A stretch of 64,000 nucleotides of DNA from Mesoflavibacter sp. (GTDB taxonomy: Bacteria > Pseudomonadota > Alphaproteobacteria > UBA8366 > Aestuariispiraceae), in contig CP051228.1 in assembly GCA_017792345.1 (NCBI GenBank), positions 4,184,148 through 4,248,147 of the forward strand, given 5' to 3'. Below are positions 14,811 to 16,664 of the stretch, piece after piece. Both the position numbers and the translations under genes were made by a program. The notes beneath the pieces are model-generated. The model did not search any database. It was not told the origin of the DNA and saw only the letters and a list, made by a program, of their open reading frames with translations. Every line of letters starts with the position of its first letter. Position 1 is the stretch's first letter.

Positions 14811-16664
14811 ATGAGCAAGCTTCGGGCGCTCTGCGCGACGGCAGTAGTGGCGGCGGTTTTTCTATCCGGCTGTCAAACCAACAACGGCGGCAGCAGCCCT
14901 ACAGCGGACGAGGAACGCCCGCGCTTTTACTTCAATGCGGCGAAACCGGCCGGGACCCAGATCGTCGACCTGAACGCCTGCTACGAACAGCGTGATGACG
15001 CGAAGAGCTCGAATGCGGGTTACGCAGCCGCGGGCTTTCTGCTGGGCGGCATCGTCGGCGCCATCGCCGTGTCCAACGCCCGCGAAGATTCGATCGAAAC
15101 CGCCTTGGGTTCCTGTCTCGCGAACCGCGGCTACGAGGCCGTCCTTGTGCCGGAGAACCTGGATTGGGTCGCCTTCGGTCTGGAGACGGAGGACGGTCGC
15201 GCGGAATCGGTTCAAGCGTTTAACCAAGCGCTTTCGGACACTGAACGCGACGCTTGGAAGACGGCCGTATCGCAGAGCACGATTGTCGGTTACCGCGCCT
15301 TCGTCGAGGCCCACCCCAACGGCCTGCTGACGCAGGAAGCCATCTTCCGCCACAACCGGCTCGTCAAGTTCGCGCAGGCGCAATACGAAGACGCCGTCTG
15401 GGCCGGAACCGCGACGGAACCGGAGCCTGCGGTCGCGCCGCTGACCCAGAACGGGACGCCGAGCACTGCCCAGGTCGCGGCAGCTCCGGCCGATGCGCCG
15501 AATACCTGGCGGGGAACGGCAGTCGGTCAACCGATCGGTATGTTCGAGAACGAATTCTGTGATGAAGCCAGAAGTAACAGGCTGGTTCTGCGCATGGGCG
15601 ACGGTGTCTTCACCGGTGAGTTGATCCGCGCGATGGACGGACAAACCTCCAAAATCGAAGGTAAGATCTCCGGCGAAACGCTTACGGGCAAGCTCTTCGA
15701 CGCCGTTGGGCCAAACGATCCCTTCACCCTTACCGGTCGGATCGACGGACAGAACATCACCGGCCAGATCTATAAGACAAATGTGAACGATTGCAGCGCA
15801 ACATTCGCGGTCCGGTCCTCCGCGCCCAACCAAGCGGCCACTGCGGCTCTGCAGCAGCTTGAAGTCGCGCCGCCGGCGCACGAATCGATCCCACCGGCGG
15901 AAACCGCAATGGCCCCTACGCAGCAGACCGGGCCAGCATCCGTCAGTGGCCCGACGGTTTGGCAAGGCAGGGCCGTACCGAACAGTGTTATCAAAAACTA
16001 TGGCGAATTCTGCGATGTGCGGGAGGCAAGCGCCCTTACATTCACGATCGACGGTCCAGATGTGACGGGCCAACTCGTTCGTGCGGCCGATGGGAAGATC
16101 GCGAAACTGCACGGCACGCTAAAGGGAGACGTCCTTACCGGGCAACTTGCCGATTCCAATGGCTTTATGTCTAAGTTCGTATTCACCGCGAGGCGGCGCG
16201 GGAACGCGATATCGGGCACTTTCTCGGGGGCGGCCTGGAATGGTTGCGGCGCCGACTTCACCGTAACCACGGACGACCCGCGCTACGCGACGGGCGGCCC
16301 GACATTGGTTTCCCAGACGCAGTCCGCAGATGGCGCCAGCCAGAAATGGCGTGGCACGGTCGTGGGGGATGGCAGTCGCGTAGAGTACGGGTGGTTGTTC
16401 TGCAAGGACACCGCCCCTCAAGTGATCACCATACGAACCGACGCGGTCAGCTTTCGAGGCGAGGTAAGGCGAAACCGGGACGGAAGGTCCATACCGTTCG
16501 AAGGAACAATTTCCGCAAACAAGATAGAAGGAAAGTATAAAGGACCAGATTCCGAAATAAATCTGAATGTCACAGGAATTCTTGACGACAAAACGTTAAA
16601 AGGTCGTTTGTTCAGCTCCGCATTACCCGCCTGCTCTGCGACCTTTGAACTTCATAGTCTCTAG
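14811..16664 (+). CDS. Lipoprotein with three tandem ~103-residue Cys-pair repeats
   Basis: 617-residue predicted lipoprotein of unknown function. The signal peptide [20 protein letters not shown] ends in a lipobox LSGC (Cys21). Residues ~65-90 form a Gly/Ala-rich hydrophobic zipper ([16 protein letters not shown]). Three repeats follow at ~233-335, 384-488 and 513-616, joined by Ala/Pro/Gln-rich linkers. Each repeat opens with W[RQ]G and has one Cys early (250, 401, 531) and one late (328, 479, 608), a central R-x-x-DG motif and a C-terminal C-x-A-[TD]-F. The Cys pairs would suit disulfides outside the cytoplasm. The start at 14811 has GGGGTGGG upstream. A fragment of a fourth repeat lies just downstream. 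The 3' third is more AT-rich than the rest. Confidence 0.85.
15507..15815 (+). repeat. Repeat 1 of the lipoprotein
   Basis: Codes for the first ~103-residue unit, from TWRGTAVG to CSATFAVRS. Conserved points: Cys250, RAMDG, a T-G-K-L turn and Cys328. Confidence 0.8.
15960..16274 (+). repeat. Repeat 2 of the lipoprotein
   Basis: Second unit, from WQGRAVPN to CGADFTVTT. Conserved points: Cys401, RAADG, LTGQL, the [14 protein letters not shown] segment and Cys479. Confidence 0.8.
16347..16658 (+). repeat. Repeat 3 of the lipoprotein
   Basis: Third unit, from WRGTVVGD to CSATFELHS. Conserved points: Cys531, RNRDG, IEGKY and Cys608. This copy is the most AT-rich and the most divergent of the three. 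Confidence 0.8.

Follow-up and report, generated by a model that had tools for sequence, protein, structure and literature searches.

The proteins TbpB, NHBA, fHbp and HpuA are lipoproteins, and binding roles are described for TbpB, LbpB and fHbp. In TbpB a handle domain pairs with the barrel, a type of barrel known from surface proteins with which pathogens acquire iron. Proteins with TbpB-type barrels are treated as lipoproteins in the part of PMC5449769 covered here, and, according to the part of PMC12282271 covered, barrels of this type occur mainly on surface lipoproteins or secreted proteins of host-associated bacteria and exit via Slam. The same portion of PMC12282271 describes surface proteins of Sphingomonas and Psychrobacter with several such barrels (multi-TbpBBD proteins), which are predicted cargo of type XI systems and many of which are lipoproteins. 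Here we compare with these systems a lipoprotein gene from the window, that is, the whole stretch of 64,000 nucleotides that was analysed.

A lipoprotein gene with three tandem units

The gene is solitary between two housekeeping genes on the opposite strand, eno (-, 13293-14666) and kdsA (-, 16788-17627), both named by eye from their translations. The first-pass annotation had described a 617-residue lipoprotein frame at 14811-16664, and this frame was found as it stated, with the sequence LSGC seen by eye at residues 18-21; by the lipobox rule, the Cys ends the lipoprotein signal peptide. An in-frame GTG at 14784 is an alternative start upstream. A scan for promoters and terminators found none and was uninformative. 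The features of the gene, with the identities of its parts to genes A, B and C of G003, another genome of the genus, are as follows.

14811..16664, + strand: whole lipoprotein gene (617 aa; frame and translation), with eno on one side and kdsA on the other
14811..14873, + strand: lipoprotein signal peptide, lipobox L-S-G-C, Cys21, +2 residue Gln (sequence and lipobox rule)
14874..15506, + strand: anchor domain, Cys57/Cys102 pair, 90% identical to the anchor of G003 gene A
15018..15080, + strand: glycine-zipper-like stretch (residues 70-90; sequence)
15243..15365, + strand: W..a....gY.af.ea.PnG...A..R motif (residues 145-185; anchor-profile matches within positions 126-224)
15507..15815, + strand: unit 1 (residues 233-335), Cys250/Cys328, predicted eight-stranded barrel (repeat alignment and AlphaFold2)
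15816..15959, + strand: linker 1, Ala/Pro/Gln-rich, 48 residues (sequence)
15960..16274, + strand: unit 2 (residues 384-488), Cys401/Cys479, 67% identity with the second unit of gene B in G003
16275..16346, + strand: linker 2, 24 residues; the DDPRY..GG at and around its beginning also occurs at the C-terminus of gene B in G003
16347..16658, + strand: unit 3 (residues 513-616), Cys531/Cys608, 30% identity with the unit of gene C in G003

The three tandem units, each of ~103 residues, are true repeats. Local alignments of unit against unit scored 162, 124 and 70, far above shuffle means of about 26 (sd about 5), and in each of the three pairs the observed score was reached by 0 of 1000 shuffles. 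The features ascribed to the units earlier, namely the W[RQ]G opening, the R-x-x-DG turn, the closing C-x-A-[TD]-F and one early and one late Cys, were all seen in the translation, as was the glycine-rich stretch ahead of them (about residues 70-90). Besides Cys8 in the signal peptide and the lipid-bearing Cys21, the protein contains the six Cys of the units plus C57 and C102, so that all eight remaining Cys can pair.

The glycine zipper belongs to the anchor domain, in which C57 and C102 are kept in 4 of 4 aligned anchors. A structure model of the anchor was discarded (pLDDT 37). The anchor profile matched at least 13 of 385 genomes of the class, this count being a lower bound since at most 7 first-look candidates were scored per genome. 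Beyond the family's own anchors, the matches listed include a glycine-rich, lipoprotein-like frame of 167 residues (L135) and, in large proteins from G003 and from other Alphaproteobacteria, the W..Y..PnG motif. The latter accounts for 12 rows, two of which belong to a single protein, and a C14 motif is present in 5 of the 12. The helical PnG motif is thus common to large alphaproteobacterial proteins, several of them C14 caspase-like. An HMM of the helical motif gave the window protein alone a domain score of 4.9 (E 1.4), which only slightly exceeds the top score among 200 shuffles; the HMM's only clear match was the lipoprotein of G013 (1.5e-4). Since L135 and the large W..Y..PnG proteins match the anchor while caspase-like proteins share the unit, anchor and heads each have relatives elsewhere.

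Fold and family of the unit

The first-pass annotation did not recognise the fold of the unit, which can now be named. Structure prediction with AlphaFold2, given four sequences (the three window units and one caspase unit), produced for unit 1 an eight-stranded up-and-down barrel with a pLDDT of 87.6 and a pTM of 0.80. The best Foldseek match to this model was the C-terminal barrel of NHBA (5o1r; TMq 0.69, E 9.5e-3), with no match at E 0.001 or better, and lipocalins and fatty-acid-binding proteins reached a TMq of about 0.40-0.53. In the VIA structural comparison TbpB (3v8u) came first, with Z 12.1 and an rmsd of 2.6 over 99 aligned residues, and the rows to about rank 38 were mostly TbpB, LbpB, NHBA, fHbp, HpuA, HphA and another haemophore. 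Two quinohemoprotein amine dehydrogenases scored Z 10.5, designed barrels up to 9.5, Cap15 9.2 and monomeric streptavidin 8.7; given the amine dehydrogenases and designed barrels, the lead of TbpB is small. A TbpB-like fold for the unit, a TbpB-type eight-stranded mini-barrel, is nevertheless a confident prediction. As to a handle domain such as that of TbpB, the space between the units is small, with linkers of 48 and 24 residues, and the model of the region before unit 1 has a pLDDT of 37.

The Cys pairing suggested earlier is consistent with this model. Each of the 9 full-length units that the searches retrieved (three from the window, three from G003 and three from caspase-like proteins) has both Cys, a count biased toward Cys retention because profiles reward conserved Cys; it excludes units B1 and E, which were picked by eye and also have both. 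In the model of unit 1, strand 1 covers residues 2-9, strand 2 residues 23-30 and strand 8 residues 96-103 of the unit, Cys18 sits in the long loop 1 between strands 1 and 2, and Cys96 starts strand 8. Strand 8 of an eight-stranded up-and-down barrel closes on strand 1, so that by strand order both Cys lie at the long-loop end of the barrel and a disulfide could plausibly join loop 1 and strand 8. Conservation and strand order thus support the claim of one disulfide per unit, and we take the bond to be probable.

The same annotation had called the family unknown, and for curated sequence models this holds. No Pfam or NCBIfam model reached its cut-off for the 617-residue lipoprotein, the remaining sub-cut-off matches being to weak, unrelated Pfam families and one irrelevant weak NCBIfam model. 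Membership of a known curated family was rejected, since for the lipoprotein Pfam and NCBIfam gave only such weak matches and PADLOC none at E 0.1. Pfam matched unit 1 to TbpB_B_D (PF01298) at E 0.05, with 14.6 bits against a curated cut-off of 26, and units 2 and 3 had no TbpB_B_D match at E 5; altogether the model matched 2 of 8 units tested, with a best E of 0.0029. In a six-frame scan TbpB_B_D exceeded its cut-off in 0 of 14 genomes of the bacterial family, and the one match to PF01298 elsewhere in the source genome (E 0.22) is near chance. A phmmer search against PDB chains, with P6 best at 0.023 and TbpB at 0.054-0.07, was not convincing alone. The unit profile matched TbpB among PDB sequences at 2.6e-5, yet plant LRR kinases scored 2.5e-6, and because they outscore TbpB this search was not relied on. 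Being below the Pfam cut-off in sequence and TbpB-like in predicted fold, the unit is thus an unnamed relative.

Anchor and heads in the genus and beyond

kdsA was found in all six genomes of the genus, source included, and the lipoprotein in two of them, the window genome and G003; the other four gave no match to the lipoprotein or to the unit profile. Across 59 relatives, matches to the lipoprotein at E 0.001 came from three genomes. The third is G013, whose lipoprotein has a related anchor (E 3.2e-7, 33% identity) and a C-terminal segment that resembles the unit weakly (E 0.00088, probability 23%). The slot between eno and kdsA is a short gap in G001, and in G002, G004 and G005 it contains a membrane-protein frame of 252-265 residues (L019, L020 and L021), presumably TauE-like, so the slot may be prone to insertion. 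A search of genome contigs with P0001 as query found no relative.

In G003 the slot (L008:3017-6126) holds three tandem genes. Gene A encodes a lipoprotein with one unit, gene B a protein with a signal peptide unlike that of a lipoprotein, a degenerate segment and one good unit, and gene C a second lipoprotein with one unit. The good unit of gene B is the one 67% identical to window unit 2, and the DDPRY..GG that follows unit 2 recurs at the C-terminal end of gene B, which makes the three-unit gene look like a fusion across an array of this kind. The unit of gene A is 45% identical to window unit 1 and 47% to unit 2, thus equally near to both, and unit 3 shares only 30% with C, so one-to-one descent is clear for unit 2 only. 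Judging from these sequence relations, the most likely origin of the three-unit gene is a fusion spanning a tandem array such as that of G003, though the direction may have been the reverse, a fission in G003.

The two parts of the protein differ sharply in divergence between these genomes. The anchor (232 codons) has a dS of 0.23 against gene A, while dS is 1.88 for unit 1 against A, 2.26 for unit 2 against B and saturated for unit 3 against C. For reference, dS is 1.04 for eno, 0.75 for kdsA, 0.62 for pyrG and 1.83 for a histidine-kinase tail, and 47 neighbouring gene pairs, those left besides the target after frames with pN/pS above 0.6 and overlapping frames had been dropped, range from 0.41 to 2.93 with a median of 1.04. 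The lowest of these values, 0.41, belongs to positions 50543-51427 of the window. Third codon positions are alike at 194 of 232 sites in the anchor, against a maximum of 80.2% in 669 windows of the same length, and at 40 of 104 in unit 1, a level as low (39% or less) in 46 of 1193 windows of 104 codons from the neighbouring genes. These window comparisons drew on 44 of the 47 pairs (26885-27382, 39803-40345 and 53178-54434 were left out), and within this set a pair contributed windows only where its aligned codons sufficed.

The identity step falls within the first codons of unit 1, no earlier than 15507, where the unit starts, and no later than about 15522. Similarity extends to the intergenic region upstream of the gene, where 86.3% of 241 bases agree, and this gives one further feature.

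14547..15521, strand not assigned: region of similarity to G003 (79-96% per 75-base block), with a sharp right edge where unit 1 begins and a provisional left edge

The simplest reading of the alignment is a recombination tract over the intergenic region and the anchor that ends where the heads begin. In this one genome pair, from which the constant/variable pattern comes, anchor and heads have most likely been reassorted, recombination being the probable cause of the step.

The unit was also found on secreted proteins with a C14 caspase-like domain. In the source genome (G000), profile A1 matched an 830-residue C14 caspase-like protein at E 2.4e-4 (hhalign 8.7e-9), which has a PF00656 match at 1.7e-41 and, by eye, a signal peptide. 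It has three C-terminal segments that look beta-rich by eye; one matches the unit and the other two were not convincing against it (E 0.011 and 0.36). Located at L030:2281-4773 (C1, about 1.42 Mb), it also carries PnG helical motifs. A C14 protein of G008 has the unit at its C-terminus (profile A4, E 1.1e-12), and so does one of G013, the same protein being present in the Hwanghaeella sp. record JANQIT010000217.1. The unit thus lies at or near the C-terminus of three C14 proteins of the bacterial family (G000, G008 and Hwanghaeella), and Pfam assigns no domain to these C-termini or their units. When the three window units alone were used as seed in a search of 7469 frames, the Hwanghaeella C14 unit was found (domain E 0.0073) and the caspase-like protein of the source genome was not reported. 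No Peptidase_C14 domain was matched by Pfam in the 617-residue lipoprotein. Two genes from the unit-bearing caspase-like gene of G013, a Hwanghaeella MAG, lies a DUF1194 protein (L010:2354-3142; PF06707, 2.4e-65). The part of PMC12282271 covered connects DUF1194 with marine type XI systems, but this genome had no Slam match.

The unit was found in 4 of 43 genomes of the order, in at least 3 of 385 genomes of the class with the first profile and in at least 10 of 398 genomes of the phylum with the second, the source included each time; in the class and phylum scans at most 12 first-look candidates were scored per genome, so these counts are lower bounds. The class match in G046 is weak and partial, and most of the nine other phylum matches are partial, four being in frames of 109-118 residues. 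None of these was counted as a member, and they may be wider relatives or analogues. Two of the nine, the short proteins L127 and L122 from other lineages, have a W close to the N-terminus, one Cys early and another late, a Cys layout not seen in the other phylum matches; they may belong to a broader family of Cys-paired mini-barrels that has no name yet.

The C-terminal tails (at least 90 residues) of 88 caspase-motif frames were compared with 87 shuffled controls. The only high scores, 173 and 145, came from two frames whose units are in the profile and are inflated for that reason, and five others scored 18.7-20.9 over 8-33 columns against 17.5 for the best shuffle. As these are barely above the best shuffle, most caspase-frame tails have no detectable unit. 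In the G003:C1:5035 region, the C-terminal segment of a C14-motif protein (L144), not reported by the unit profile, has one Cys early and one late and may be distantly related to the heads.

Role of the heads and comparison with known systems

Two results go beyond the first-pass annotation, namely the head in common with secreted caspase-like proteins and the pattern of a constant anchor with variable heads. We give roughly even chances to an envelope lipoprotein in which a constant anchor (the lipid-modified Cys21, the glycine zipper and a short helical motif) bears three variable TbpB-fold heads that act as binding modules on flexible linkers. The lipid anchor and a helical spacer would carry the three barrels, each an eight-stranded TbpB-fold mini-barrel probably pinned by the disulfide between loop 1 and strand 8, and the long loops at one end of each barrel would form a binding face, stiffened by that bond. 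By analogy with TbpB, LbpB and fHbp, the loop face of each barrel would bind something, different heads binding different things, with the Ala/Pro linkers giving them freedom to move. In the caspase-like proteins, a head of this kind would serve for target finding or for sensing.

A structural envelope lipoprotein is unlikely. In such a protein the glycine zipper would insert in the membrane and the barrels would be spacers or scaffolds with no specific ligand, in keeping with the zipper and conserved Cys pair of the anchor, with the Ala/Pro linkers and with an anchor more conserved than the heads; however, a pure scaffold does not readily account for the unit in caspase-like proteins or for the presence of the gene in only two of the six genomes of the genus.

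Somewhat less probable again is a surface lipoprotein dependent on Slam (type XI), in which the barrels would be the export signal of a TbpB-like receptor on the outer leaflet. A lipobox together with the fold of TbpB, NHBA and fHbp would suit this, and predicted multi-TbpBBD cargo, with many lipoproteins, is known from Sphingomonas and Psychrobacter (the part of PMC12282271 covered). The Slam model PF04575, however, had no match in the source genome and exceeded its cut-off in 0 of 14 genomes of the family (below it, G009 matched at E 0.004 and G002 at E 0.2), and the neighbours of the gene are eno and kdsA. The search itself works, since within the class it gave matches above the cut-off in 29 of 289 genomes. 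With no Slam gene found, the type XI route is unsupported and a position facing the periplasm is the safer default; we therefore favour heads on the periplasmic side.

It is very improbable that the lipoprotein acts as partner of the secreted caspase-like proteins or as their decoy, its heads recognising the target of the caspase C-termini and tethering or titrating it at the membrane, possibly in bacterial conflict. For all the common unit, the common helical motif, the constant/variable pattern and the match of the source-genome caspase-like protein to a PADLOC caspase model (1.4e-9), that match spans the caspase region only (residues 52-216), the lipoprotein had no PADLOC match at E 0.1, and its gene is solitary between housekeeping genes.

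Returning to the lipoprotein with binding heads, Cys-paired tandem barrels in a lineage of Alphaproteobacteria where Slam was not detected, present also on secreted caspase-like proteins, suggest a more general recognition module of the envelope. The heads might further be exchanged by recombination at the anchor/head junction, drawn from a tandem array and from a pool in common with the secreted caspase-like proteins. We regard this extension as doubtful; if true, it would give Alphaproteobacteria with no Slam a self-contained way to diversify envelope receptors. The unit also offers a lead on what the C-terminal regions of some alphaproteobacterial caspase homologues do; in Pfam, those of the three proteins covered here, or their units, are blank.

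Among described systems, the titles and abstract openings of papers on such barrels with Alphaproteobacteria or recombination, and on bacterial caspases, held nothing recognisable as this lipoprotein. The best structural match is to the N- and C-lobe barrels of TbpB (PF01298) and to NHBA, fHbp and HpuA, which like the predicted unit are eight-stranded up-and-down barrels; the units differ from the TbpB family in their length of about 103 residues, in standing three in tandem, in their conserved Cys pair and in that no Slam was found. The anchor is like L135, the one example of a stand-alone glycine-zipper lipoprotein-like frame, in its order of Cys, glycine-rich stretch and Cys, whereas that 167-residue frame has no barrels. 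With the secreted C14 caspase homologues of Alphaproteobacteria (PF00656; the part of PMC3501461 covered) the lipoprotein shares the unit and the PnG helical motif, but it lacks a caspase domain and is held by a lipid anchor. The closest architecture in print, among the literature covered, is the multi-TbpBBD cargo of Sphingomonas and Psychrobacter in the part of PMC12282271 covered, where, as in the window protein, several TbpBBD-type barrels are joined in one protein, with N-terminal Pro-Thr-type repeats in place of the glycine-zipper and helical-motif anchor found here together with no detected Slam.
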